Of a DNA stretch of 64,000 nt, positions 21,055-41,360 are shown piece by piece; positions within the stretch are counted from its first letter, which is position 1; each line of letters starts with the position of its first letter. The DNA lies in contig CAUJHZ010000047.1 of NCBI GenBank assembly GCA_963205185.1, positions 1 to 64,000 on the forward strand, given 5' to 3'. Below the pieces are notes generated by a model. That model searched no databases. It was not told the DNA's origin and was given only the letters and a program-made list of their open reading frames with translations. Source of the DNA: Planctomycetota bacterium. GTDB lineage: Bacteria > Planctomycetota > Phycisphaerae > Phycisphaerales > UBA5793. The translations under genes and the position numbers were made by a program.

Positions 21055-22110
21055 ATGATCGCGCCACGTTCGGGCAATGAAGGCGGCGCGATTCTCAATC
21101 TCGAGATGACTCCATCGGACACATCTCAAGGCAGAACGCACGGATCGCTGCGGCCGGAGCTGTCGCGCATTGCGCCGGCGGTCGGCGGCTGCGTCGAAGC
21201 GTTCGTGCTGCTCGGCGGAGGACTCACGCCGTCTCCGCTCACGGCTGCTGCGCAGTGCTCGGTGCTCGATCTGCTCGTCGGGCCCGGCGATCGCACGGTG
21301 CTCAGCCGCTGGTTGGAGCGCATCGACGGGCTTGGCGATCTGGCTGCGGATCGGCTCTCGGTCATCGTCGCCAATGGAGAGGACATTCCCGCGCCGCGTC
21401 TGCCTGCGGAGGCGTCGAGGCAAATTGAGGTCGTGGTTGATCGGGAGAACTACCGCGGCGCTGCGGGCGTGGTGCACGATGTGTCGCAGCATCTGAGCGG
21501 TGATGCGGTGCTGCTGGTTGCCGAGGCGGCGCGTTGCCCGGACTTTGACCTGGCGGCGCTCGTGAGGCACCACCGTTCGAACGCGTATGAGACCACGGTG
21601 CTGGTCAATCCCGACGGGACCCCTGCGGGTGTGTACGTGGTCGCGCGCCCCCTCATGCGCTACGTGCAGCGCGAAGGGTACATGGATCTCAAGGAACAGT
21701 GGCTGGCGAAGGTCATCGCCGGCGAACATCGCGTGGGCGCGTTTCGATTGATCGATGGATATTCACGGCCGCTGCGCACGCGGGAACAGTTGCTTCACGC
21801 GGCAAGGCTCAGCGTGCAGCCCGTTTCGCAAAGCAAGCCGGCTCGATTTCGGCTTGAATCAGCATCGCGGCGGAGCGGCTTTCAGTGCATCGCGGCGGAT
21901 GCGAAGGTGGACCCGACGGCGGTCGTGATGGATTCCATCATCATGTCGGGCGCCAAGGTTGGCGCAGGCAGCATTGTGACGCGGTCGGTCGTTTGCGCCG
22001 GCGGAGCAGTGCCGGCGGAGGCGCGACTGGTGGATGAGGTGTGGGCAGCCGGCCGGCCTGGAGTCGGCGCCATCGGCACAAATGGGAATCACCGGAGATC
22101 GGCACATTGA
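21055..22110 (+). CDS. Degenerate sugar nucleotidyltransferase with beta-helix C-terminus
   Basis: A 351-residue protein built like an NDP-sugar pyrophosphorylase: an N-terminal alpha/beta domain, then a left-handed beta-helix (about residues 280-335, with DAKVDPTAVVMDSIIMSG and hexapeptide-like turns). The signature that should read GGxGTRLxPLT is LLGGGLTPSPLT, so the catalytic arginine is missing, and no KPM/KCL lysine follows. It is therefore probably not an active nucleotidyltransferase. It may be a scaffold, a regulator of the pathway or an acyltransferase-like protein. It sits 48 bases after the dehydrogenase and overlaps the exosortase start. Confidence 0.6.
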   Translation: MIAPRSGNEGGAILNLEMTPSDTSQGRTHGSLRPELSRIAPAVGGCVEAFVLLGGGLTPSPLTAAAQCSVLDLLVGPGDRTVLSRWLERIDGLGDLAADRLSVIVANGEDIPAPRLPAEASRQIEVVVDRENYRGAAGVVHDVSQHLSGDAVLLVAEAARCPDFDLAALVRHHRSNAYETTVLVNPDGTPAGVYVVARPLMRYVQREGYMDLKEQWLAKVIAGEHRVGAFRLIDGYSRPLRTREQLLHAARLSVQPVSQSKPARFRLESASRRSGFQCIAADAKVDPTAVVMDSIIMSGAKVGAGSIVTRSVVCAGGAVPAEARLVDEVWAAGRPGVGAIGTNGNHRRSAH

Positions 22111-22979
22111 GCACACTTCGGCGCACATGGGACTTTTCACTCGGACTCTGGCTCGGCGTGCTGACGCTCGTGGCTGTCGCAGCCACCATGGACCTCTGGC
22201 GCGACATCTTCGCCATCGGCTGGCAGGACCCGGAGAACTCGCACCTCATTCTGGCGCCGTTCGTCGCGGTCTGGCTGGTCTGGGTGCGGCGGGAACGGAT
22301 TCGCTTCATGCGGCCGAGCCCGAGCATCTATGGTCCGCTCGTCGTCATCGCTGGCTGGATCAGCGTGCGCATCGGCTACCAATACGGCATCATCGTGGCG
22401 CAGCACGGCGGAGCGCTGCTCATCGTTTGTGGCGCTGCACTCACGATGCTCGGGCTTCAGGTCGTGCAACTGTTCCTGCCGGCCGCCGCGGCGCTGCTGT
22501 TCATCCTGCCGGTGCCCGGGAGGATTCGAGAGGCAATCGCCTTGCCGCTGCAGGAGCATACGGCTCAGATCACCCATTACCTCCTGACGGCGATTGGCAT
22601 ACCGCTCGAACGCGGCGGGAGCGTACTGACCATCAACGGCACGGAAGTGGCCGTCGCCGAAGCCTGCAACGGCATGCGCATGGTCACGGCACTGATGCTC
22701 ATCACCTTCGCATTCGTATTCTCCGTGCCGATGCGGCAGCGAATCCGGCTCTTCTTCCTCATTCTCAGCCCGGTCATCGCGCTGCTCGTCAACGTGATCC
22801 GGCTTGTGCCGACGGTGCTTCTCTACGGCTACGCGAGCGAATCGGTGGCTACGACGTTTCACGACATCAGTGGGTGGGTCATGCTGTTCGTCGCGCTGGG
22901 AATTCTCTGGGCGATGCTGGGGCTGCTCCGGTGGCTGGAGATTGCCGTGTCTCCACATCCGATCGGAGAGGAGGATTAA
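22107..22979 (+). CDS. Exosortase
   Basis: A 290-residue membrane protein with about eight helices. All three residues of the proposed exosortase active site are present: Cys187 in EACNGMRM, Arg232 in NVIRLVP and His252 in FHDISGWVMLF. Exosortases are membrane transpeptidase-like enzymes that cleave CTERM-tagged exported proteins, usually in genomes with linked exopolysaccharide genes. A TTG at 22107 overlapping the previous TGA is chosen; the upstream extension from 22041 lies within that gene. The tails at 32159-34388 read [IV]PLP[AV]PV, suggesting the VPLPA-type (XrtD-like) subclass; a profile search would be needed to fix the subclass. Confidence 0.88.
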   Translation: MSTLRRTWDFSLGLWLGVLTLVAVAATMDLWRDIFAIGWQDPENSHLILAPFVAVWLVWVRRERIRFMRPSPSIYGPLVVIAGWISVRIGYQYGIIVAQHGGALLIVCGAALTMLGLQVVQLFLPAAAALLFILPVPGRIREAIALPLQEHTAQITHYLLTAIGIPLERGGSVLTINGTEVAVAEACNGMRMVTALMLITFAFVFSVPMRQRIRLFFLILSPVIALLVNVIRLVPTVLLYGYASESVATTFHDISGWVMLFVALGILWAMLGLLRWLEIAVSPHPIGEED

Positions 22980-23672
22980 GTGACGCGAGGCAACCGCCAT
23001 CGACTTCGCTCGCTGGGCATCCCGCTGGTCACTCTGGTGCTGCTGATGTGCATGTTGGCGTTCGGCGGGCTCAGCCAGGACCCGCCGACCGGCGCGCCGG
23101 ACTACTTTGCTCGTGTTGCCGCGAAGATGGATGAAGTGCCCTTCAGGGTCGGCGCCTGGTTCGGCGTCAACCTGCCGTACACCGATGTCGAAGTGGAGAT
23201 GCTCCGGCCCAACAAGATGCTTCAGCGCACCTATCAGGACCAGGCGACGGGGCAGAAGGCCAGTCTCTCAATCGTGCACTGCACGGATGTCCGCGACATG
23301 GGCGGGCACTATCCGCCGGTCTGCTACCCCGCGCATGGATGGAACCTGGAGTCGAGTGAACTCTCCGAAGTGACGGTGCAGGGCCGGCCGCAGAGCGTGC
23401 GTGTCTACGTGTTTTCGCGCATGAACCGTGGCACGAGAGAGGCCATTCGGATCGTGAGCTTCTTCATCATTCCGAACTCATCGGACATTCGAAGTGAGAG
23501 AGACGGACTGGAGCGTGCGGCCAAGCGGCCGCAGGCGGCGGGCCTCGGCGCTGCGCAGGTGCAGATCCTGACGCCCGATTCGCAATCCATCGAAACCACG
23601 GATGAGATGGTGTCGAAACTGATCGAAGTCGTCGAACCTGTCATCGAGACAGTCCAAGAAGGTGTGAAATGA
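22980..23672 (+). CDS. epsI: Exosortase-associated protein EpsI
   Basis: A 230-residue protein with one N-terminal membrane helix (about residues 12-30) and an extracytoplasmic domain. The EpsI/DUF3485 hallmark HYPPVCYPAHGW lies around residue 111-122, with Cys115 in it, and is followed by a VYVFSRMNRGT strand. EpsI is normally fused to or next to an exosortase and is needed for exopolysaccharide output. The GTG start abuts the exosortase TAA without a gap, and a GAGAGGAGG ribosome site lies just upstream at 22966-22974. Its exact chemistry is unknown in the family. Confidence 0.88.
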   Translation: MTRGNRHRLRSLGIPLVTLVLLMCMLAFGGLSQDPPTGAPDYFARVAAKMDEVPFRVGAWFGVNLPYTDVEVEMLRPNKMLQRTYQDQATGQKASLSIVHCTDVRDMGGHYPPVCYPAHGWNLESSELSEVTVQGRPQSVRVYVFSRMNRGTREAIRIVSFFIIPNSSDIRSERDGLERAAKRPQAAGLGAAQVQILTPDSQSIETTDEMVSKLIEVVEPVIETVQEGVK

Positions 23673-27426: not shown

Positions 27427-27448
27427 CCTGCTTCATGTGGAGTTCGAA

Positions 27449-30400
27449 ATGACACGACGCGGCAAGAAGCGTCTCCTTATTCTCGTCGGCATCACCGCCC
27501 TGCTCGGCGGTGCAGCCACCGGAGCGTACTTCGTCCGTGAGGCGCGCCGGGCCCAGCAGATCGCCGAGGCCTACACCGATGGCATGGCGGCGTACGACGC
27601 CGGCGACTACGAGAACGCGCTGCGCGGTCTCGGCAAGGCGCTCTCGGAGCACCGGGAGGATCCGGAAGTGCTTTATCGCGTTGCCAACGCCCGGCGGCAT
27701 GTACCGGTGGAGAACAACCGGCACCTGGGGGCCGCGATCCCTTACGCGCGCGAAGCGGCCGGTCGGGCGCCGCAAGACGAGCGGCCGCTGGCGCTGCTGC
27801 TGGACCTGTATCGCCGGGTGGGATTCGTCACCGAGCGCCTTGAAGCCGCCGACCGGCTGCTTGCGCTGGACCCGACGCACGAGCAGGCTCACACCGCCAA
27901 GATCGAATGCCTGGCCACGCTGGGCCGCTCAAGTGAAGTGCAGGCCGCGGTGGATGCGTTGCTCGCCGCGCATCCTCAGAACCTCTACGGCCATCAGTCG
28001 CGCATCGAGACGATGCGACTCGATGGCCGCTCCGCCGAGGAGGTGCTGGCGTACACCGAAGATCTTGTCACGCAGTATCCCGACAATCTCATGCTCGCCA
28101 CGCTGCAGGTGCGCGTGCTCGCCGCGTATGGCAAACGCGAGGCGGCTGTCGAGGCAGCCAGGCGCGCCCAGGGGCTGACCATTCCGGATACCGAAGCCTT
28201 GCTCGAACTCGTCCGCATCCTCGACCAGATCGGACTGCGGACGGATGCCGATGCACTGCTGGATCGAAGCGCGGAGAATACACAGTTCCGCGACGATGTG
28301 CACGCGTATCTCATTGAGCGAGCCTGGAACGCTGGTCAGATGGACCGCGCGCGCCAGCAGGCCGCGCTACACGCCGAGCCGCTCGATGCGACTCCATCGC
28401 GACTGCTGGGCTGGATGGCGCTGATCTCGCTTCCCGTGGAAGGCGGCTGGGCGTCCGGCGCGGCCGGCGCCGAACTGAAATCTCGCACCGATGACCAGGG
28501 CCGCTACTGGCAGGGGCTGCTCGACAGCCGCGAATTCATGGATGCCGGTGAATACAGCAAGACGCGTCAGCGCCTCGCTGAACTGGTCGCACTGCCTGTG
28601 ACTGACAGTCTGGCGTGGTCGATGCTCGGCGAGGTCGATCAGCGCCTCGGAGAGTCGGAGATGGCCGTGCTGAGCCTTCAGGAGGCGGTGCGGCAGGATC
28701 CGACGTCCTCGCGTGCTCAAATGATGCTGGCAACCTCGCTGCTGGATCTCGGCCGGCTCGATGAGGCGCGGCTGCCCGCCGAGCGGGCCGTCATGTCCAA
28801 CCCCGGCGCAGCCGAGGCGCTGACGCTGGCGCGTATCTACATCGCGCTCCTCGACGCCAATCGCGCTGACCAGCGCATTCGCGACGGCGTTGTGACGATT
28901 CTTGAGGAGATGGCCGCACAGGCGCCGGAGCAGGCCGATGTGCAGGCGCTGCTCGCGCGGACTTACGTGGCTGTCGGTCATCTCGAGGATGCGAAGGCGG
29001 TGATCAGTCAGATGGCCACGATGGAGCGGCTGCCGAACTCAGCAGTGCTGCTCGACCTGGCCAACGCCTGCAAGCGGTCTGCGCCGGAACTTGTGGACAG
29101 CGTGCTAGCGGTTGCGGCGCGCCTTGAAACCGTCGGCCCCGGGCTCATGGCGCTGCAGTTGAATGCCGGCTCGGCCGCGCTCGCCCCGGAGACGGTGCGC
29201 GCCAGGTACGAAGAAGCGATCCAGGCCGCAGACGACCCGAACCTGCGCATGCAGTACGAGATCGCCTACGCGCGATACCTTGATTCAACGGGTGATGAAG
29301 GTGCACTTGCGGAACTCAAACGCATCTCGACTACCTATCCGGATCGGCCGGAAGCGCAGAACGCACTGCTCGACTCTCGATCCGCGTGGACCGATCAGCA
29401 GTGCATCGTCGATGCAATCGACCGTCTCAAGGCCGCAACGGGCGAGAACGCAGCCCGCTGGAAACTCGCCGATGCTCAGCGGCGCCTTGCGTTCGAACCG
29501 GGAGACGAGGCGGCCTCGGCGGTTGTGCTCTCACTGACGCCGCTCACCCAGCCGCCCTCGTCGAATGTTCGGGCGATGATGCTCTGTTCCGACGCGATGC
29601 TCATGCTCGGCGACAAGCGGCAGGCAATCGACATTCTTCTGCGCGCTCTCGATCGCGACTCGAGCAATCCGCTGCTCTACGCGCACACGATCGACCTGCT
29701 CCAAAGCACCGGCCGGGCCACCGAAGCGGCGACTCGGCTGCGCGAATTCCTCGCGATCCGGGCACTGAGCCCGGAGTTCCAGCGTCGACGCGTCGGACTG
29801 CTGGCGCGAGCCAACATGTGGCCTGAAGCGATCCGCGACTGCGAAGCGCTCACAGCCGCCACCGGCGAATCGCAGGATCGACTCTCGCTAGCCATGCTTC
29901 ATGGCAGCCACGGCCGGTCCGCCGACGCCCGGCGACTCTTTGATAGTCTGCTTGCGGAGCCTGAGGCGCCTCGACAGATTCGCATCGCCGCGGCGGACTT
30001 CTATGCGGCAGCTGACAGTGTCGAGCGCGGGGCGGAAGTGCTCAAGCCGCTTCAAGAACAACTCGCGGCGTCTGAATACACCGCGGTGTTGGCCGGTTAC
30101 TACGAACGGCACGGCCGGCTCGATGAGGCCGGCCGGCTGCTGGCGTCGCAGGCGCAAGAGTCAGGCGCCGGCGATGACTGGGTCGCACTGGCCGAGTTCC
30201 AGATCCGCACGCGGCAGGCTGAACAGGCTCGCACGACCGTCGCTGCCGGCCTGAGAGCCGATGCCGAGCATCCGGCTCTGGTCGCATTGAACGACCTGCT
30301 CGACGCGCTCGAATCCGGCAGCCTTGGCGCCGGCTCCATCGACGACATCATCGACGCGCTCGTCGATGAGAACCTTCGGGCGGTGATGAAACGCATTGCG

Positions 30401-31618
30401 ACCGCGATGCACTACGCCGAGGCGAACCCGGCAGATCCCGCAGGCTACATCGAGCGGTTGCGCGAGGTGGTAGATGATGAGCCGACCCTGATCCTCGGGT
30501 GGCAACTGCTCGTCGGCGCTCTGCTCAACTCCGGCCAGCCGGACGAGGCCGTGCTGACGGCACAGAACGCGGCGCGTGTGCTCCCGAATTCGGTCCGTGC
30601 GGCTGAGTTGCTTGCGACGACGCTGGCGGACGCCGGGCGCTTCACCGAAGCGCGGGCCGCCGCCGGTCGGTGGCGGGAACTCGATTCGGAGCGCCCGACG
30701 CGCGCCGATCTCCTGCTCGCCCAGATTGAGACTCAGTCGGGGCAGCCCGAGCGCGCTTTGGCAGCGATCCAGCCGTGGGTGGAGAGGATCAAAGCGGAGG
30801 CGGACCAGTTTCCGACGCGTCTGGGGCTGTACGCGAGCATTCTCATTCAGGCCGGCCGCGTGGACGAGGCGCAGGCGATGATCTGGCCCAAGGCGGAGCA
30901 GAGCGGCGACTGGGCCCAGGCATACGTGCGGCTGGCGGGCGAAATCGGCGATGTCTCCACGGCGATTCAGTGGGTGGATCGAGCTGAACCGTTGGTTCCG
31001 CTCACGCCGGACACGCGGATGGGTATGGCTCAAGTCCGTTCCGAACTCGGGCAGCGCGGCGGCGGAGCGGACCAGTTCCGCAAGGCGGTGGCGTTGCTCG
31101 AGCCGCTCCAGTCCGACCCGGCATTCCCGGCGGCGGCGCTGGCGATGCTCGCTGGCTGCCAGCAGCAACTCGGTGAGGTCGCCGCTGCGGAAGCGACATA
31201 CCGAAAGGCTCTGGCTGCCGCGCCGGGAGATCCGATCATCCTGAACAACCTGGCCTACCTTCTGCTCGACTCGGCGGAAAACGCCGACGAAGCACTGAGA
31301 ATGGCTTCGCAGGCCGTCGCTGCCGCGAAGCAGCGAAACCTCCCGGCGGGCATCCGTGCCAATCTTGCGGACACACTCGGTACGGCGCAGTTGAGCGTCG
31401 GTCAGTTCGACGAGGCCCAGCGCAGTTTCCGCGATGGGCTGGTTCTCGATGGGCGCAATGCTCTGTTGCAACTGGGTCTGGCGGAAGCGCTTGCGCGAGC
31501 CGGGCAGGGCGAGGATGCCAAGGCGCAGTACGAGCAGGTCGCCGGCCGCAGCGACCTCAATCGAAATGATGCGGATCTGGCCGCCCGGCTGGAGCGCGTC
31601 GCGGCGCTGGTGAATTAG
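27449..31618 (+). CDS. Giant TPR protein of the exosortase/exopolysaccharide locus
   Basis: A 1389-residue protein with an N-terminal signal anchor (about residues 8-24) and then tetratricopeptide repeats across nearly the whole length, for example LGEVDQRLGESEMAVLSLQEA and DPIILNNLAYLLLDS near the C-terminus. PrsT-type TPR proteins of similar character occur in exosortase loci, where they are thought to help polymer export across the envelope. ATG 27449 is chosen because GGAG lies at 27439-27442; GTG 27437 would overlap that site. It is the last gene of the long operon. No catalytic motif is visible, and the partner is unknown. Confidence 0.75.
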   Translation: MTRRGKKRLLILVGITALLGGAATGAYFVREARRAQQIAEAYTDGMAAYDAGDYENALRGLGKALSEHREDPEVLYRVANARRHVPVENNRHLGAAIPYAREAAGRAPQDERPLALLLDLYRRVGFVTERLEAADRLLALDPTHEQAHTAKIECLATLGRSSEVQAAVDALLAAHPQNLYGHQSRIETMRLDGRSAEEVLAYTEDLVTQYPDNLMLATLQVRVLAAYGKREAAVEAARRAQGLTIPDTEALLELVRILDQIGLRTDADALLDRSAENTQFRDDVHAYLIERAWNAGQMDRARQQAALHAEPLDATPSRLLGWMALISLPVEGGWASGAAGAELKSRTDDQGRYWQGLLDSREFMDAGEYSKTRQRLAELVALPVTDSLAWSMLGEVDQRLGESEMAVLSLQEAVRQDPTSSRAQMMLATSLLDLGRLDEARLPAERAVMSNPGAAEALTLARIYIALLDANRADQRIRDGVVTILEEMAAQAPEQADVQALLARTYVAVGHLEDAKAVISQMATMERLPNSAVLLDLANACKRSAPELVDSVLAVAARLETVGPGLMALQLNAGSAALAPETVRARYEEAIQAADDPNLRMQYEIAYARYLDSTGDEGALAELKRISTTYPDRPEAQNALLDSRSAWTDQQCIVDAIDRLKAATGENAARWKLADAQRRLAFEPGDEAASAVVLSLTPLTQPPSSNVRAMMLCSDAMLMLGDKRQAIDILLRALDRDSSNPLLYAHTIDLLQSTGRATEAATRLREFLAIRALSPEFQRRRVGLLARANMWPEAIRDCEALTAATGESQDRLSLAMLHGSHGRSADARRLFDSLLAEPEAPRQIRIAAADFYAAADSVERGAEVLKPLQEQLAASEYTAVLAGYYERHGRLDEAGRLLASQAQESGAGDDWVALAEFQIRTRQAEQARTTVAAGLRADAEHPALVALNDLLDALESGSLGAGSIDDIIDALVDENLRAVMKRIATAMHYAEANPADPAGYIERLREVVDDEPTLILGWQLLVGALLNSGQPDEAVLTAQNAARVLPNSVRAAELLATTLADAGRFTEARAAAGRWRELDSERPTRADLLLAQIETQSGQPERALAAIQPWVERIKAEADQFPTRLGLYASILIQAGRVDEAQAMIWPKAEQSGDWAQAYVRLAGEIGDVSTAIQWVDRAEPLVPLTPDTRMGMAQVRSELGQRGGGADQFRKAVALLEPLQSDPAFPAAALAMLAGCQQQLGEVAAAEATYRKALAAAPGDPIILNNLAYLLLDSAENADEALRMASQAVAAAKQRNLPAGIRANLADTLGTAQLSVGQFDEAQRSFRDGLVLDGRNALLQLGLAEALARAGQGEDAKAQYEQVAGRSDLNRNDADLAARLERVAALVN

Positions 31619-32158: not shown

Positions 32159-32926
32159 ATGCGATTGCGATCACTTGGTATGCTGGCCGTGGCGTTACTG
32201 ATTCCTGCTGTTTCCGCCACGCAAGTCGCGGCCGACCCCCCGGTTTACTGGGGAACGATGACCTTTGACGGCATCTACTACGGAGGAGCCGGTGGGGGCG
32301 GAGAGTTTCGGTGGACGACGACGAAGAGTCCCGCTGGAAAGGGAGACCTTACTCTCAAGGGTCCGGGGAGTCTGAATTCATCACAGTTCTTGACGTTCTG
32401 TGTTGAGACGACAGAGCATATCAGTAATGGCGAAAAGGTGTTCGCCTTTCTGAATGATCGGTCAAAGAACACGAACATCACTCTAAAGAACGGAACCGCT
32501 TGGGTCTACAGCCAGTTTGTCAATGGCGCCCTCTCCACGCTCTCTCCTTACTCGTACGCCACGAATGCGGGCAACGCGCGAACCAGCGACGCTAACTCGT
32601 TGCAGAACCTCATCTGGTACTTCCAGGGCCAATCGCTTTACAGCAGTCTCGATGCACAGTCTCTGGCTTGGCTCGCGGAGGCTCAAGCCGCCCTTGGTGG
32701 AGCCGGAAACGAGTTTCTCACAGACAACATCGGAAAGGTGCGCATCCTCAACTGTTGGCAGTCGCTGGACGGCAATGGTAACGGCACGGGCGCGCGCCAG
32801 GACATGCTTGTCATGATCCCGCTTCCTGCGCCGGTCTGGATGGCCGGAATCGGGCTGTTCGGCGTTGTCGGCGGCACCATCTACCGTCGCCGCTTCTCCG
32901 GCCGGAACCTATCCGACTGCATCTGA
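32159..32926 (+). CDS. Exosortase substrate, putative thioester-domain surface protein
   Basis: A 255-residue exported protein: signal peptide (MRLRSLGMLAVALLIPAVS), a beta-rich body, then a CTERM tail with IPLPAPV at 220-226, a hydrophobic helix and YRRR. The body has FCVETTE with Cys81 and LQNLIWYF with Gln149. These fit the Cys and Gln motifs ([YFL]C-hydrophobic and hydrophobic-Q-x2-hydrophobic-W) that form an internal thioester in TED/TQXA surface proteins of Gram-positives. ATG 32159 follows a GGAGGA site; the frame is open a few codons upstream without a signal. It is paralogous to the product at 33591. Confidence 0.75.
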   Translation: MRLRSLGMLAVALLIPAVSATQVAADPPVYWGTMTFDGIYYGGAGGGGEFRWTTTKSPAGKGDLTLKGPGSLNSSQFLTFCVETTEHISNGEKVFAFLNDRSKNTNITLKNGTAWVYSQFVNGALSTLSPYSYATNAGNARTSDANSLQNLIWYFQGQSLYSSLDAQSLAWLAEAQAALGGAGNEFLTDNIGKVRILNCWQSLDGNGNGTGARQDMLVMIPLPAPVWMAGIGLFGVVGGTIYRRRFSGRNLSDCI

Positions 32927-33002
32927 TTCGATCGGTTTGTGTGGCGTTCTTCAAACTCGTGTCCCCAATCGATGTGGGTGAGTGGAAGAAAAGGAGAGCT
33001 TA

Positions 33003-33470
33003 ATGAATTGTCGTACCTCGTTTGTTATCCTGGCTTCGTTGGCGGCTGCCGGCAGCGCCTTTGGGGCCAGCGTTCCTGCTAGCCTCGCTTCCGGCGGCAC
33101 GAATGACGCAGCCGTGGACAGTTTCCTGCAGTACATTACCTCTGCAGAAGAGCAGCCTTCTTTCGCTGCGTTTGAAGGCAGCGGACTCGTCGCTCAGGAT
33201 CGGCCGACGTATTCGGTCGGCTTGGTTGGTGGCGGCATCGAGTTCGATGGAAGCGTGGTGGTCGGGCATCTCTCCATCGAAAGCGAATTCAATGCAGCTG
33301 AAGGTTCCGATCGGAGCTTCTCACTTGCTCCGCCGGTCGGAACCTTCAGTGATGCAGGCGGCCTCGTCAGTCCCAACAATGTCCCGCTGCCGGCACCCGT
33401 TGCCATGGGCGGCATCGGCCTGCTGAGCCTCGGCGGTTTCGCCGCCTGGCGGCGCCGTGGTCGCATCTGA
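33003..33470 (+). CDS. Small exosortase substrate with VPLPAPV CTERM tail
   Basis: A 155-residue exported protein. A signal peptide (about residues 1-22, ending SAFGAS) is followed by a short acidic, serine-rich body and a tail beginning VPLPAPV at residue 127, then a helix and a WRRRGRI end. The tail fits the VPLPA-type CTERM signal. The body has no similarity I recognise, no cysteine and no catalytic motif. The ATG at 33003 follows an AAAAGGAGAG ribosome site at about 32990. It lies between the two larger paralogues. Confidence 0.75.
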   Translation: MNCRTSFVILASLAAAGSAFGASVPASLASGGTNDAAVDSFLQYITSAEEQPSFAAFEGSGLVAQDRPTYSVGLVGGGIEFDGSVVVGHLSIESEFNAAEGSDRSFSLAPPVGTFSDAGGLVSPNNVPLPAPVAMGGIGLLSLGGFAAWRRRGRI

Positions 33471-33590
33471 TTTCGCCGAATGACTCACATCGAGTCAACG
33501 AGATCAAGAAACCATCGAGTGGGCTGGCGGACACGTCAGCTCACTCTTTTAGAAGCGTATCTGCCCACTTCCAGGCGCTGAGCCACACCA

Positions 33591-34388
33591 ATGACCCGGT
33601 CCATCCGCCCGCGCCGTCCGTCCGTGAGTTCATTCATTGCGGCGGCAATTATTCTGGGCTGCACGACCACCGCCCTCGCCAACCCCATCCCCGTCGGCCA
33701 GATCCGAATGGACGGCTTGCGCAACCACTTCAGCGTGCCTGGCGGCGGTTACGCCGGCGAGTTCATCGTCAACGCCAGCCGCCTCACATTCACGCCTGAG
33801 GGCCTCGGCCGCAACGGCGTCGATTCCAACCACTTCATCAGCTTCTGCGTCGAAACCACCGAACTTATTCAACTTAACAAGTGGTACGACGCGGAACTTA
33901 ATACCGAATCCCGGAACACCAACCGCGAAGTCCAGCAGGAGACGGCGTTTCTCTACTACCACTTCGTCAAAGGCGACCTGGCCGGCTACAAGTACTTCGA
34001 TGACGCCTCCGCGAGTGGCGCGGAGAAGGCCGCCTCGGTCCGCGCCCTGCAGGAGGTGATCTGGTATTTCCAGGATCCAGCAGGATTCGTCGCCCGCTAC
34101 GGCGCCAACGCTTTCGGCACTGGCGGCTACTTCAAAGGCACCGCCTTGCACAAAGTCCTCGCCCGCAGCTGGTACTCCAACCTCTCCACATGGCTCGACG
34201 GCTCAGGCAGCGAACTCGCCAAGGTCCGCATCATCAACATTTGGGACGGCGGCAACGCCCGTCAGGACACGCTCGTCATGATCCCGCTGCCGGTCCCGGT
34301 CTGGATGGGCAGCCTCGGCCTGTTCGCAGTAATCGGCGGCTGCAGGTGCAGGCGACGGGCGGCGAAGCGAACTCCCAACTCACTCTGA
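33591..34388 (+). CDS. Exosortase substrate, putative thioester-domain surface protein
   Basis: A 265-residue paralogue of the product at 32159: signal peptide to about residue 30 (ALAN), then SFCVETTE with Cys86 and ALQEVIWYF with Gln154. The 68-residue Cys-Gln spacing is the same as in its paralogue although the sequence between is quite different. The tail starts IPLPVPV at 231, followed by a helix and CRCRRR, with nine further residues. No clear ribosome site precedes the ATG. It is the last CTERM gene; the 295 bases after it up to the tRNA hold nothing I recognise. Confidence 0.72.
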   Translation: MTRSIRPRRPSVSSFIAAAIILGCTTTALANPIPVGQIRMDGLRNHFSVPGGGYAGEFIVNASRLTFTPEGLGRNGVDSNHFISFCVETTELIQLNKWYDAELNTESRNTNREVQQETAFLYYHFVKGDLAGYKYFDDASASGAEKAASVRALQEVIWYFQDPAGFVARYGANAFGTGGYFKGTALHKVLARSWYSNLSTWLDGSGSELAKVRIINIWDGGNARQDTLVMIPLPVPVWMGSLGLFAVIGGCRCRRRAAKRTPNSL

Positions 34389-35232: not shown

Positions 35233-35910
35233 TTACGGCTGCGGAACGCCGCCCGCGGCCTTCCATGCCTGATCGAGGGAGCCGAGGTATTTCGCCGGCT
35301 CGGCTTCGAACTTCTTGATGCAGTTCCTGCAGCAGAATCGGACGAGGTGGTTGTTGTACACCTTGTCGACCGGCTCGCCCATCCCGCCCAGTTCTTCGCC
35401 CGAGACGACGCATGTCTGAAGCGGATACGCCTTGTCCTGCCGCTCGATCACGGCCTGATCGAGTTTGTCCAGCGTGGCTTTGGGGTCCTTCTCGAACCTG
35501 CCGACGCATTTCTCGCAGCAGAAGCGCACGAGGCGGTTGTTGTAGACGTAGTCGACCGGCTCGCCCATGCCGCCGAGTTCTTCGCCCGAGATGGGGCAGG
35601 TCGCCAGCGGGTAATAGGGCATCTGGGCTTCGATGATCTTCTCATCGATCTTTTTCCAGTACCCGGCCTTGTCCGCCTCAAACTTCTTGATGCAGCTCTT
35701 GCAGCAGAAGCGGACCTCGCGGCCGTCGTAGGTCTTGACGATGGGATCGCCCATGGAGCCGAGCTTTTCGCCCGAGACGGGGCAGGTGTCGAACGGGTAG
35801 GGATCGGACTTGACGTCCTTGGACGGATTCTGCACGGCGGAGCCGAGGCCGGCGAGGCTCAGCAGAGCGCAGCTGAGCAATGCAGACACGTTGTTTCGAA
35901 TGCGGTTCAT
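35233..35910 (-). CDS. Exported protein with three TRASH/YHS-like metal-binding repeats
   Basis: A 225-residue protein with a signal peptide (about residues 1-25) and three tandem repeats of exactly 62 residues. Each has C-[PV]-[VI]-SGE-x-LG, 21 residues on a RFCC-x2-C, then FE. The cysteines are C43/C69/C70/C73, C105/C131/C132/C135 and C167/C193/C194/C197. This fits a TRASH/YHS-type metal site. As the last gene of a CusCBA-type operon it could chaperone or sense copper, silver or a similar ion in the periplasm. Metal identity is inferred from context only. Confidence 0.75.
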   Translation of the reverse strand: MNRIRNNVSALLSCALLSLAGLGSAVQNPSKDVKSDPYPFDTCPVSGEKLGSMGDPIVKTYDGREVRFCCKSCIKKFEADKAGYWKKIDEKIIEAQMPYYPLATCPISGEELGGMGEPVDYVYNNRLVRFCCEKCVGRFEKDPKATLDKLDQAVIERQDKAYPLQTCVVSGEELGGMGEPVDKVYNNHLVRFCCRNCIKKFEAEPAKYLGSLDQAWKAAGGVPQP

Positions 35911-35961
35911 CGGATTCTCCTTTGAGGATGTGGCAAATGGAGACAGTGGATTGAAGCGGCG

Positions 35962-38900
35962 TCAACGCGACGCCGCGCGGTTTTCGTGAAACTGTCGATG
36001 CAGCGCGATGCGCTTGGCGAGATAGAACAGCGGCGGGTAGATGAGCAGTTCGAGCAGGAAGCTCGTCGCCAGCCCGCCAATCATCGGTGCGGCGAGGCGG
36101 CGCATGGTGTCGGCGCCGGCGCCGGTGGCCCAGAGCAGCGGAACCAGGCCGATAAAGGTGGTCATCACCGTCATCGTCTTGGGCCGGATGCGCTGCACGG
36201 CCCCGTCGTGAACGGCCCACCAGAGATCGTCGGCGTTGCGCATGCGCCCCTGCTGCGTGAAGCGCTCGAAACTGTTGTCGAGATACAGCAGCATGACCAG
36301 GCCCGTTTCGGCGTCGAGACCGGCCAGCGCGATGACGCCGACCCACACCGCCAGCGATAAATTATAATCGAGCAGATAAAGCAGCCACACCGCGCCCACG
36401 AGGCTGAATGGCACCGCCAGCAGCACGATCCCCACGCGCAGCCAGCTGTGCGTGGCGAGGTACAGCAGCAGCACGATGAGTACGCCCGCGACGGGTACGA
36501 CGATCATCAGCCGCGCCCGCGCCGCCTGCATGTACTCGTACTGGCCGGACCAGACGATGCTGTAGCCCGGCGGCAGCGCGACGCGTTGCGCGACCGCCCG
36601 TTGCGCGTTGCGCACGTACGTGCCCACATCGATGCCGGCGATGTCCACGAACACCCAACTCGTCAGGCGGGCGTTTTCGCTCTTGATCATCGGCGGGCCT
36701 TTGTGGACGACGAAGTCGGCCAGCTGCCCGAGTGGAATCTGCGCGCCGCCCGGCGCGGCGACGAGCGTCTGCTTGAGCGCATCGACGTTGTCGCGCAGTT
36801 CGTGCGGGTAGCGGACGTTGATCGGATAGCGCTGCAGTCCTTCGACGGTGCTGCCCAGGCTCATGCCGCCCAGCGCCGTCATGATGACATCCTGCACGTC
36901 GCCGACCAGCAGGCCGTAGCGTGCGATGGCGTCGCGATTGATTTCGATGTCGAAGTAGTTGCCGCCGACGCTTTTTTCGGCAAAGGCGCTGGTGGTGTAC
37001 TGACCCGTGCCTTCGGCGGTCTTGATGACGGTGGCGATCTCATCGGCAAGCCGCGCGAGCGTCTCCAGATCGGGCCCCATGACCTTGATGCCCACGGGCG
37101 TCTTGATGCCCGTGCTGAGCATGTCGATGCGCGTCTTGATGGGCATGGTCCACGAGTTGGTCAGGCCGGGGATCTGCACGATCTCGTTGAGGCCCGGCAC
37201 GTGCGTGCCATCCGGGAACTCGTAGCCGTAGACCAGTTCGGCCGTGGTAATGGGGCGCGCTTCGCCAACGAGCCTGCGGCCGAGCCAGCGGGTGCCCCAC
37301 GGCCAGTGCTCGAACGCGACGGGCACGTGGCGCCGCTTTGTTTTGTCGCGCTGCAGGGTGATGGTCGTTTCGATCATGCTCGGCGGCGCGGGGTCGGTGG
37401 CGGTGTCGGCCCGCCCGACTTTGCCCATCACGCTGACCACTTCGGGCACTTGCATGATGAGATTGTCAGTCTGCTGGAGCAGTTCGCGGGCTTTGGTCAT
37501 GCTGATGCCCGGATCGGTCGTGGGCATGTAGAGCAGGTCGCCCTCTTCGAGCGGGGGCATGAACTCGCTGCCCAGGCCGGGGAACGCACGAGAAAGCGCG
37601 GGAAACCGCTGGGCCGCTTCAACGCCGAAGATGCGCTGGAAGCCCATCAGCGGCACTGCCGTGCTTGCCACGAGCAGCGCAGCGCCCAGCAGCACGAGCC
37701 AGCGGAAGCGCATCACCAGCACGAACAGCGGGTGGTAGAGCGCCTGCAGCACCCAGGAGATCGGATTGGCGCGCTCGTGGATGATCTTCTGCGGCACGAG
37801 CAGCATGCCCATGAAGACGATCCAGCCGATCGCGAGCCAGAGGCGATAAGGCTCCCATGCCCCCAGCGGCGCGGTCCAGAAGATCGCCGCGGGGATAAAC
37901 ATGGCGGCCAGCGTGATCGCCGTGTTGCGCCACACGCCCCACTGCTTCGGCAGGACGCGCGGCGTGATGAAGTATGTCATCAGCACGGGGATGATCGTCA
38001 CCGCCAGCAGCGATGCCGAACCCATGGCGAACGTCTTCGTCCATGCGAGCGGCTTGAACATTCGCCCGCTCTGCTCGCCAAGCACGAAGATCGGCAGGAA
38101 CGAGACGGTGATGATGAGCAGGCTGAAGAACAGGCTCGGCCCCACTTCGCGCGCCGCCTCGGCGATAATGACGCGCCGATCGCGCGGCTCAGCCGGCTCG
38201 CCCGCGGCCGTCGCTTCGTGCAGGCGCTCTTCCTCGCGATCCAGGTGCTTGTGGGCGTTTTCGACCATGACGATCGAACTGTCCACCATCACGCCGATGG
38301 CGATGGCGATGCCGCCCAGGCTCATGATGTTTGCGTCGATGCCCAGGATGTGCATGAGCACGATGCTCGCCAGCACGCCGGTGGGGACGACGAACACGGC
38401 GACGAGTTCACTGCGCGCGTGCAGCAGGAAGAGGATGCACACGAGACCGACGACGATGATCTCTTCGACGAGGGTGTGCTGGAGCGTGTGCACGGCCCGG
38501 TCGATGAGATCAGAGCGGTCGTAGCCGACGCGCACCGCCGCGCCGGGCGGGAGGCCGCGCTCGAGTTCGGCGAGTTTGGCCTTGACGCGCTCGATGGTGT
38601 CGCGCGCGTTCTGGCCGAAGCGCATGACGACGATGCCGCCGACGACTTCGCCCTGGCCGTTCCACTCCGCGATGCCGCGGCGGATTTCGGGCCCGAGGCG
38701 CACTTCGGCCACGTCGCGCAGGTAGACGGGCCGGCCCTGCGGATTCGACGCCAGCGCGATGCTGCCGAGCTGGTCCAGCACGCGCTGCGTGCGCACCGCC
38801 TCGACGGATTCGCCGCGGCTCTCGATGGCCGCGCGTTCTTCGGCGCTGAGCGTGCCGAGATAGCCCAGGCCGCGGACCATGTATTCGGTTTCGCTCATTT

Positions 38901-39729
38901 CGATGAGCCGCCCGCCGACGTCGACGTTCGAGCGCTGGATGGCCTGCTTGATGCGCGAGAGCGGCACGTCGTAGGCGAGCAGCCGCACGGGATCGACGAC
39001 GACCTGGTACTGCTTCACGAAGCCGCCCACCGGCGCCACTTCGCTCACGCCCTCGACGGCGGTGAGCTCAAACCGCAGGTACCAGTCCTGCAGGCTGCGC
39101 AGGCCGGCGAGATCGACCTCCGGATCGGCAAGGGGCGCGCCATCCAGCGGACAGGCCTCCATGCCGTCGAAGGTGCGCACGCGCTCGAGCCGCTCGCGCG
39201 CCTCGGCCGGCGCATCATCCGGCTCCGCGTACCATGCATCGTCAACGGGATCATGCCACAGTCCCTGCGGATGCTCCGGGCAGTAGCGTCCCGTGACGAG
39301 CACGTACTCATACGCCCAGCCGACGCCGGTGGCGTCGGGCCCGAGCTGGGGTGAGACGCCCTCGGGCAGTCGCGCGCTGACGGAACTGAGCTGCTCGAGC
39401 ACGCGGCTGCGGGCCCAGTACATGTCCGTGCCGTCTTCAAAGATGATGTAGACGAAACTCGAACCGAACATGCTGTAGCCGCGCACGACCTTGGCCAGCG
39501 GGACGGCGAGCATGGCCGTCGTGAGCGGATAGGTCACCTGGTCTTCAACGATCTGCGGCGCCTGGCCCGGGAACTCGGTGCGGATGACCACCTGCACGTC
39601 GGAAAGATCGGGAATCGCATCGACGGTGATGTGCTGCGCCGACCAGATTCCGCCGCCGATGAGGCACGCGGTGAGCAGCACCACCAGCAACCGATTGGCG
39701 ACGCACCAGTCGATGAGTCGGGCAATCAT
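35962..39729 (-). CDS. cusA: Heavy-metal efflux RND pump (CusA/CzcA family)
   Basis: A 1255-residue RND protein, somewhat longer than the usual 1040-1060. It keeps the N-terminal DLSDVQVVIRTEFPGQAPQIVEDQVTYPL heavy-metal signature, the GGIAIAIGVMVDSSIVM helix, two large periplasmic domains and a C-terminal ALAGLDAETGLVML helix. The GIAIA...D context with VD in TM4 resembles CusA/CzcA proton relays. An insert of about 60 residues (147-205) after EYVLVTG carries Cys150 (CPEH) and Cys193 (CPLDG), not found in typical family members. The gene overlaps the adaptor gene by four bases, so the two are coupled. Confidence 0.9.
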   Translation of the reverse strand: MIARLIDWCVANRLLVVLLTACLIGGGIWSAQHITVDAIPDLSDVQVVIRTEFPGQAPQIVEDQVTYPLTTAMLAVPLAKVVRGYSMFGSSFVYIIFEDGTDMYWARSRVLEQLSSVSARLPEGVSPQLGPDATGVGWAYEYVLVTGRYCPEHPQGLWHDPVDDAWYAEPDDAPAEARERLERVRTFDGMEACPLDGAPLADPEVDLAGLRSLQDWYLRFELTAVEGVSEVAPVGGFVKQYQVVVDPVRLLAYDVPLSRIKQAIQRSNVDVGGRLIEMSETEYMVRGLGYLGTLSAEERAAIESRGESVEAVRTQRVLDQLGSIALASNPQGRPVYLRDVAEVRLGPEIRRGIAEWNGQGEVVGGIVVMRFGQNARDTIERVKAKLAELERGLPPGAAVRVGYDRSDLIDRAVHTLQHTLVEEIIVVGLVCILFLLHARSELVAVFVVPTGVLASIVLMHILGIDANIMSLGGIAIAIGVMVDSSIVMVENAHKHLDREEERLHEATAAGEPAEPRDRRVIIAEAAREVGPSLFFSLLIITVSFLPIFVLGEQSGRMFKPLAWTKTFAMGSASLLAVTIIPVLMTYFITPRVLPKQWGVWRNTAITLAAMFIPAAIFWTAPLGAWEPYRLWLAIGWIVFMGMLLVPQKIIHERANPISWVLQALYHPLFVLVMRFRWLVLLGAALLVASTAVPLMGFQRIFGVEAAQRFPALSRAFPGLGSEFMPPLEEGDLLYMPTTDPGISMTKARELLQQTDNLIMQVPEVVSVMGKVGRADTATDPAPPSMIETTITLQRDKTKRRHVPVAFEHWPWGTRWLGRRLVGEARPITTAELVYGYEFPDGTHVPGLNEIVQIPGLTNSWTMPIKTRIDMLSTGIKTPVGIKVMGPDLETLARLADEIATVIKTAEGTGQYTTSAFAEKSVGGNYFDIEINRDAIARYGLLVGDVQDVIMTALGGMSLGSTVEGLQRYPINVRYPHELRDNVDALKQTLVAAPGGAQIPLGQLADFVVHKGPPMIKSENARLTSWVFVDIAGIDVGTYVRNAQRAVAQRVALPPGYSIVWSGQYEYMQAARARLMIVVPVAGVLIVLLLYLATHSWLRVGIVLLAVPFSLVGAVWLLYLLDYNLSLAVWVGVIALAGLDAETGLVMLLYLDNSFERFTQQGRMRNADDLWWAVHDGAVQRIRPKTMTVMTTFIGLVPLLWATGAGADTMRRLAAPMIGGLATSFLLELLIYPPLFYLAKRIALHRQFHENRAASR

Positions 39730-41360
39730 GGCTTGCCTCCCCCGCCGGCTTCGTCGAGAAGCCGCATGTACTTCTCCGGGTCGGCTTCGAAATCATCAAG
39801 ACACGATTCGCAGCAAAAGAGCAGCTCACGGCCCTGGTAAGCGCGGCGGATCGGATCGCCCATTGAACCCAGACGGGCATCGCTGACCACGCAAATGTCC
39901 AGCGAATACGGCGTCAGCGCTTCATCTGCGTCAGGCACGCGCAGCACGCGATCCTCCGGCGCCGGCGGCGGCGGCGCGGCCGGCTGGCCTGTCATCATCT
40001 TCGCGAGGCTTTCGCGCATCCTCGCTTCGCTGTCGAGCAGGAACTGGCCGCTGGTCACCACCATCTCACCGACCTGCAATCCCTCGATCACCTCGACCAT
40101 CCCGTCTTCGGTCTGGACGCCCATGACGACGTCGCGCGGCTCAAAGCGCCCCTGCCCCAGGCTCACGAACGCGACGCTCCGCTCGCCCGTGTCGATGATG
40201 GCGGATCGCGGCGCCAGCGGCTGATCCGCAGCGATCGTGTTGCGCAGTTCGATTTGGGCGAACATACCCGGCTTGAGCAGCAGGTCGGGGTTGTCAAACT
40301 CCAGCCGAACGCTCGCCTGCCGCGTCTGTTCGTTCAGGTACGGATAGATGTAGATCACGCGGCCTTCGAGCGACTGGCCCGGCAGATACGGCAGCGTCAT
40401 CTTCGCCGTTTCTCCGACGTGCACGAACGGCAACTGGTATTCGTAGAGCGAGGCCTGCACCCAGACCTTGCTCAGGTCCGCCACTTGATAGATGCGCATG
40501 CCCGGCTCGACGCGCATTCCCTCGTTGGCGCGCTTGGCGGTCACGACCCCGCCAAAGGGGCTGCGCACCGTCACGGTCTTGCTCGGCTCGCCGCGCTGCT
40601 CGAGCGCTTCGATCTGCTCGGGCGTGACGTCGAAGTACTCGAGTTGCACCCGCGCATCGCTGATGAGGCGCTCGACGTCGATTCCCGAGTCGGGCAGCAG
40701 TTCTGACACGTTTCGGTCGCGCATTTCAAGCGCGGAGAGGTACTCCGCCTGCGACGCGTACAGCTGCGGCGAGTAGAGATCAAAGAGCGACTCGCCCGCC
40801 TGGATGTGCGCGCCTTCGTAATCGACGTACAGCTTCTCGATCCACCCGGCCACCTTGACGTTCACATCGCGCACACGCGTTTCGTCGTATTCGACGCTGC
40901 CGACCGTGCGCACCGTCCGCACCACGGGGCCGCTGGTGACGGGCGCGACGCGCACGCCGATGTTTTGCGTGACCACAGGATCGATGCTGATCTCACCGGT
41001 GAACTTACTCGGATCGAGCGGCACGAGGTCCATGTGGCAGATCGGGCACAAGCCCGGCTCGGGCAGGATGACCCACGGGTGCATGCCGCAGGTGTAGAAC
41101 CGGGCAGCGGCCGACGGCTGCTGTGATTCATTGTGCCCGTCGTGCTCGTCGTGCGCTGCGGCGCCGAACCACTTCTCGGCCTGCTGCCGGGCTGCCGGGC
41201 CCCAGAGCGTGCCGACGGCGATGCCGGCCAGCACGGCGAGGCTGAAGAGCAGCATGACCCACAGCCGCGGCCCGCGCGGCGGCTTGCCGCTCGGCGGGGG
41301 CGCTTTGGCCGGAGTTGACCTGGCATCCACCGGTTTGTTGACTTGCTCTGGTGCGCTCAT
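39726..41360 (-). CDS. cusB: RND efflux adaptor (CusB family) with N- and C-terminal metal-binding modules
   Basis: A 544-residue periplasmic adaptor with one N-terminal membrane helix (about residues 33-54). A heavy-metal-binding domain follows, with Cys91, Cys105 and Cys108 in a TCGMHP...CPICHMDLVP pattern, then barrel-sandwich and beta-barrel regions. At the end a TRASH/YHS-like module (C490, C516, C517, C520) has the same cysteine spacing as the repeats of the protein at 35233-35910. It would link the pump to the outer-membrane channel and could deliver metal. It overlaps the TolC gene by four bases. Confidence 0.88.
   Translation of the reverse strand: MSAPEQVNKPVDARSTPAKAPPPSGKPPRGPRLWVMLLFSLAVLAGIAVGTLWGPAARQQAEKWFGAAAHDEHDGHNESQQPSAAARFYTCGMHPWVILPEPGLCPICHMDLVPLDPSKFTGEISIDPVVTQNIGVRVAPVTSGPVVRTVRTVGSVEYDETRVRDVNVKVAGWIEKLYVDYEGAHIQAGESLFDLYSPQLYASQAEYLSALEMRDRNVSELLPDSGIDVERLISDARVQLEYFDVTPEQIEALEQRGEPSKTVTVRSPFGGVVTAKRANEGMRVEPGMRIYQVADLSKVWVQASLYEYQLPFVHVGETAKMTLPYLPGQSLEGRVIYIYPYLNEQTRQASVRLEFDNPDLLLKPGMFAQIELRNTIAADQPLAPRSAIIDTGERSVAFVSLGQGRFEPRDVVMGVQTEDGMVEVIEGLQVGEMVVTSGQFLLDSEARMRESLAKMMTGQPAAPPPPAPEDRVLRVPDADEALTPYSLDICVVSDARLGSMGDPIRRAYQGRELLFCCESCLDDFEADPEKYMRLLDEAGGGGKP

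Follow-up and report, generated by a model that had tools for sequence, protein, structure and literature searches.

The window, as we call the whole 64,000-nucleotide stretch of DNA from a planctomycete of the order Phycisphaerales that was analysed, carries an exosortase gene and, downstream of it, two genes coding for exported proteins, P0001 and P0003, whose ectodomains are predicted to adopt the fold of thioester domains (TEDs), the self-activated domains by which Gram-positive bacteria attach themselves covalently to surfaces. The genes and codons considered here are the following.

22041..22979, plus strand: exosortase (PF09721, E 3.2e-48)
22980..23672, plus strand: EpsI-type exosortase-associated protein (PF11984, TIGR02914)
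27437..31618, plus strand: large TPR protein resembling PrsT (TIGR02917; 150 bits, cut-off 312), directly upstream of the CTERM genes
32159..32926, plus strand: P0001, first predicted TED protein, 255 aa, with a signal peptide, a single predicted TED and a PLPAPVWMAGIGLFGVVGG...RRR tail
32399..32401, plus strand: codon of Cys81 (FCVE), predicted thioester cysteine of P0001
32603..32605, plus strand: codon of Gln149 (LQNLIW), glutamine of the TQxxPhiW motif of P0001, not expected to take part in the bond
32798..32800, plus strand: codon of Gln214 (RQDMLV), predicted thioester-forming glutamine of P0001, 133 residues after Cys81
32819..32923, plus strand: C-terminal exosortase-type sorting tail of P0001, as read from its sequence; a PxP-type tail occurs in 135 of 138 relatives
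33003..33470, plus strand: P0002, small secreted CTERM protein of 155 aa, between the two predicted TED genes
33591..34388, plus strand: P0003, second predicted TED protein, 265 aa
33846..33848, plus strand: codon of Cys86 (FCVE), predicted thioester cysteine of P0003
34050..34052, plus strand: codon of Gln154 (LQEVIW), glutamine of the TQxxPhiW motif of P0003, in the central helix
34263..34265, plus strand: codon of Gln225 (RQDTLV), predicted thioester-forming glutamine of P0003, 139 residues after Cys86
34284..34385, plus strand: C-terminal exosortase-type sorting tail of P0003, likewise read from its sequence

Also encoded upstream of the CTERM genes are a tyrosine-kinase-like protein and a sugar-phosphate transferase of an exopolysaccharide-initiating type. 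On the minus strand, positions 35233-41360 hold genes of metal-efflux type (an RND pump, a CusB/HlyD-like adaptor with YHS/HMBD domains and a YHS-repeat protein), which are unrelated to the TED finding.

P0001 and P0003 have the same layout, with an N-terminal signal peptide, then some 200 residues of ectodomain, and at the end PLPxPVWMxGxGLF...RRR, a tail in which a P-x-P motif is followed by a hydrophobic helix and an Arg-rich end. They align from end to end with 33% identity (pair E 8e-38) and are therefore homologues. The motifs from which an earlier, sequence-only reading had proposed internal thioesters could be read in the DNA codon by codon: FCVETTE at Cys81 and Cys86, and LQNLIWYF or LQEVIWYF at Gln149 and Gln154, with 68 residues between Cys and Gln in both proteins. 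Sharing by chance can be set aside, because the two proteins are related over their whole length and the residues are nearly invariant in 104 representatives of the family. The same reading had described the sequence between the motifs as greatly different; the divergence is real, but the segment can still be aligned. One more invariant residue had escaped it: directly before the sorting tail, both proteins have a Gln within RQD[TM]LV (Gln214 and Gln225). P0002 is not a TED and has a single Cys, which falls within the signal region; it contains no Lys and so cannot serve as a Lys side-chain target of a thioester. It shows a weak similarity to the flocculation protein PepA (E 0.018).

The proposed linkage to an exosortase held, since both TED-fold proteins end in PEP-CTERM-like tails and the exosortase gene lies 9-11 kb upstream of theirs. 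A second exosortase copy is present in the genome (C7). Exosortases were found in 294 of the 301 genomes of the order, so that mere co-occurrence says little and only linkage is informative; in this regard, the TED gene lay less than 15 kb from an exosortase gene, typically 7-14 kb, in 17 of the 45 genomes that had both genes among the matches listed. The window tails score under the Pfam PEP-CTERM cut-off. A tail of the form PLPxPVWMxGxGLFGVxGG...RRR, below that cut-off, recurs in both window proteins and in L025, L026, L028 and L029, and is possibly a separate CTERM subclass with a matching exosortase.

Predicted fold and relation to known thioester domains

AlphaFold models of the ectodomains (residues 26-225 of P0001 and 31-235 of P0003) were built from alignments of planctomycete relatives only and without templates, and reached a pLDDT of 94.5 and a pTM of 0.91 for P0003, and of 84.5 and 0.86 for P0001. 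When these models were searched against 350,542 PDB chains, the best matches of both were thioester domains. For P0003, Foldseek ranks 1-5 were all TEDs, with 5a0l at the top (E 3.3e-3, probability 0.99), and VIA-align placed TED entries at ranks 1-7 (Z 7.9-9.8; next entry 2.4) among the matches listed. Re-alignment of P0001 gave TED entries at ranks 1-11 (Z 7.1-9.7; next 3.7), again among the matches listed. The best Foldseek E value is modest, TM-scores are about 0.5, and a Z of about 8-10 is by itself middling; the TED fold is convincing because for both proteins every high row is a TED that aligns across almost the entire domain, and the entries that follow score far lower. An AlphaFold check for the TED fold had been suggested beforehand, and both models matched TEDs with no other high-scoring PDB structures. 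We regard the TED fold of P0001 and P0003, and their homology to TEDs, as nearly certain.

Direct Pfam and NCBIfam scans of the window proteins found no domain in P0001 or P0003, and both fall below the cut-off of the TED profile PF08341, while homologues in three genomes score above it. Over 294 planctomycete genomes this profile gave ten matches, three of them above the curated cut-off and reaching up to 27.6 bits, compared with 23.6 bits for TIEpLS20 of Bacillus subtilis, a genetically validated TED (PMC8092201). Nine of the ten matches belong to this PEP-CTERM family; in the tenth, L071, Cys, AFQLATW, RQDVFV and PEP-CTERM are arranged as in the family. When PDB sequences were searched with the family profile A1, the TED 6fwv came first, at E 0.12 and level with a venom protein, and the broader profile A4 gave chance matches only. 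Compared profile to profile with ten class II TEDs of Gram-positive bacteria (plasmids, Bacillus), the family aligned over just 12 columns around the Cys, with no support otherwise.

The predicted fold of P0001 and P0003 is common to the class I TEDs of Gram-positive bacteria (SfbI, CpTIE, PnTIE, Cpa), with which they also share a [YFL]C motif, a QxxPhiW motif on the central helix, a late Gln on the last strand and a Cys-to-Gln distance of about 130-150 residues. Unlike these, the window proteins have neither isopeptide or ester stalk domains nor an LPXTG signal, and carry a PEP-CTERM-like tail in a diderm planctomycete host. In their secondary-structure strings the fourth strand leads to helix 1 without an intervening helix, so that the alpha-0 insertion of class I seems absent. 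The class II TEDs (BaTIE, SaTIE, EfmTIE86, TIEpLS20) have the same head fold, as illustrated by the Z of 9.7 between 6fwv and the P0001 model, but the beta-sandwich insertion that follows their helix 3 and precedes the last strands is missing from the models of the window proteins. As judged from the secondary-structure strings only, P0001 and P0003 would thus be minimal TEDs. Each has one domain of about 200 residues directly before the PxP-helix-Arg tail, without a TIE stalk or a sortase signal, and for this reason we do not class them as TIE proteins.

Family conservation and the predicted bond-forming residues

Relatives were detected with a domain profile in 139 of 301 Phycisphaerales genomes, which represent 74 of 143 genera, and a phylum-wide sample had them in 37 of 392 genomes; the search with domain profile A3 matched two congeneric genomes, and plasmid searches with family members as queries found no relatives. 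Of the six members in the host genome, two are encoded in the window, two as a pair on C6 and the remaining two on C76, where one has Ala in place of the Cys. Tandem TED pairs no more than 3 kb apart were found in 26 of 81 genomes among the matches listed. The C6 cluster (L220:7677-10678, G000:C6) has an arrangement like that of the window, with a CTERM protein followed by two TED genes. In a congeneric genome, the cluster at G001:C34:7977-16268 (L008, L021, L025, L028-L031) contains intact TED genes together with decayed copies that have stops and frameshifts, and is a case of local duplication and decay. A frame of 1618 aa in G441 was considered as a multidomain TED protein and rejected, as it is an overlong open frame whose real gene is of ordinary size.

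Conservation was assessed on an alignment of 151 distinct sequences, with counts made on 104 representatives of less than 60% identity. Among these, the Cys is conserved in 99 of 102 and the Gln of the TQxxW motif (QxxxW) in all 102; the Trp of this motif is present in 101 of 102, and none of 98 lacks the late Gln (QDxL). Additionally, F, Y or W precedes the Cys in 132 of 134 relatives. The sequence-only reading had made its case depend on the conservation of both of its residues; its Gln is kept, and the loss of the Cys in 4 of 148 aligned members calls for mild caution. In these four the Cys is replaced by Ala (L005, L052), Thr (L027) or Asp (L060), so that L005 and L027 read FAVE and FTVE, and both Gln are retained in all of them, which suggests either that the last Gln has a role beyond the bond or that the Cys losses are recent. 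Cys-less members occur beside intact paralogues in two genomes of the genus of the window, and are possibly non-covalent partners.

The four Cys-less members, whose signature is otherwise intact and still has the last Gln, fit a TED fold without a working thioester, that is a non-covalent binder (of exopolysaccharide, for example) in which Cys and Gln are kept for packing. We consider this unlikely for the family, because packing rarely demands a lone Cys, while here the Cys is present in nearly all diverse representatives and is normally the only one of its domain; moreover, the spacing and the [FYW]C context of the family match those of TEDs with proven bonds. In 120 of 134 relatives the domain has no second Cys, which speaks against an internal disulfide. 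Dimerisation through an intermolecular disulfide would be compatible with a conserved Cys that stands alone in an exported domain, or the residue could carry a lipid or a metal instead of forming a thioester, but such roles are very improbable given that the Cys follows the first strands of the TED fold and not an N-terminal lipobox position, lies beside the TQxxW helix in homologous structures and is co-conserved with the last Gln. A thioester remains our preferred reading of the conserved Cys.

Two Gln could in principle be its partner. The sequence-only reading had paired Cys81 with Gln149 and Cys86 with Gln154, and the invariance of this Gln throughout the family, together with its identical distance from the Cys in both window proteins, agrees with that choice. 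Known TEDs, however, are fully conserved in two residues only, the Cys that makes the bond and a Gln of a weak PhiQzetaPhiPhi motif in the last strand, and crystal structures have the Cys bonded to this later Gln; TQxxPhiW is a helical element apart from these, and the bond does not depend on its Gln and Trp, the Gln having been found dispensable by mutagenesis and lying on the central helix, where it hydrogen-bonds the Cys backbone (PMC4450167, PMC6194298). Likewise, the corresponding Gln of P0003 sits in a long helix of the model (model residues 113-131), and its spacing from the Cys varies in the family from 51 to 89 residues. The assignment of Gln149 and Gln154 as bond-forming residues had to be given up, and a thioester between them and the Cys now appears extremely improbable.

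By homology, the bonding Gln should instead be Gln214 and Gln225. Both are at or immediately before the C-terminal strand of the models, and when the ends are aligned, on the assumption that the final eight or nine residues contain no gap, Gln225 falls opposite Gln247 in 5a0n and Gln267 in 5a0g, and Gln214 likewise. The Cys-to-last-Gln distance is 108-155 residues in the family alignment (median 131); that from Cys to bonding Gln is 129-153 residues in three crystallised class I TEDs. The motif RQDxLV fits PhiQzetaPhiPhi only loosely, the residue preceding the last Gln being often Arg or Ala as opposed to a hydrophobic residue, and the Thr position of TQxxPhiW is mostly L or F in the family. 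Taking the mapping and the conservation together, we judge a bond from Cys81 to Gln214 and from Cys86 to Gln225 to be highly probable.

Proposed delivery and function in the matrix

We think it likely, for the explanation as a whole, that P0001 and P0003 are minimal TEDs delivered by an exosortase and not by a sortase. On this reading they are stalk-less, exosortase-exported domains, probably able to bond covalently to amines in the matrix or on neighbouring cells. The N-terminal signal would direct Sec export, after which the predicted beta-barrel and three-helix bundle would place Cys81 or Cys86, buttressed by the Gln and Trp of TQxxPhiW, beside Gln214 or Gln225 of the last strand. By analogy with known TEDs, Cys and Gln would then condense spontaneously into an internal thioester with loss of ammonia. 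Processing of the PLPxPVWM...RRR tail by the exosortase may leave one TED without a stalk on the cell surface or close to it, or release it into the exopolysaccharide made by the same cluster. Finally, attack on the thioester by a nucleophile, for which a Lys amine on a protein of the matrix or of a neighbouring cell is the best candidate, would create an amide link to Gln214 or Gln225. The likely result would be covalent retention of the matrix on cells or cell-cell aggregation, comparable to the floc formation of Aquincola that depends on PEP-CTERM proteins and PrsT.

The comparison with Aquincola rests on a shared gene neighbourhood. In this bacterium floc formation involves prsT and a PEP-CTERM gene next to it, and when the PEP-CTERM protein is overexpressed, soluble exopolysaccharide becomes a bound polymer (PMC9850573). 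Its PEP-CTERM substrate PepA and the window proteins have in common a signal peptide, a tail of P-x-P, membrane helix and Arg residues, and a prsT-like gene and exopolysaccharide genes nearby; in contrast to PepA, the window proteins have a predicted TED as ectodomain and a tail below the Pfam PEP-CTERM cut-off. Identity of the family with the floc protein PepA was considered and rejected, as the relative L053 is similar to PepA only in its last 70 residues. The shared neighbourhood suggests that the TEDs fix matrix to cells, or cells together, through Lys residues, and we lean slightly towards covalent attachment of matrix or cells as their biological role.

In 2015 TEDs were described as exclusive to Gram-positive bacteria (PMC4450167). 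In the collection of papers searched, none combines 'thioester domain' and 'PEP-CTERM'. To our knowledge, the extracellular role of PEP-CTERM proteins is largely unknown, and a reactive domain within them offers a concrete hypothesis that can be tested by mass spectrometry. If true, it would bring TEDs without a stalk, anchored by another enzyme, into diderm envelopes, and would provide new small TEDs (about 200 residues, mostly with a single Cys) for covalent-coupling tools. Proteins that glue covalently may be widespread in settings from which they had not been described. More tentatively, and a little short of an even chance in our estimate, a large and so far undescribed class of diderm bacteria could build its extracellular matrix by means of thioester proteins that an exosortase delivers; covalent, self-activated amine coupling would then be common among the PEP-CTERM ectodomains of Phycisphaerae and would explain how soluble exopolysaccharide becomes cell-bound.
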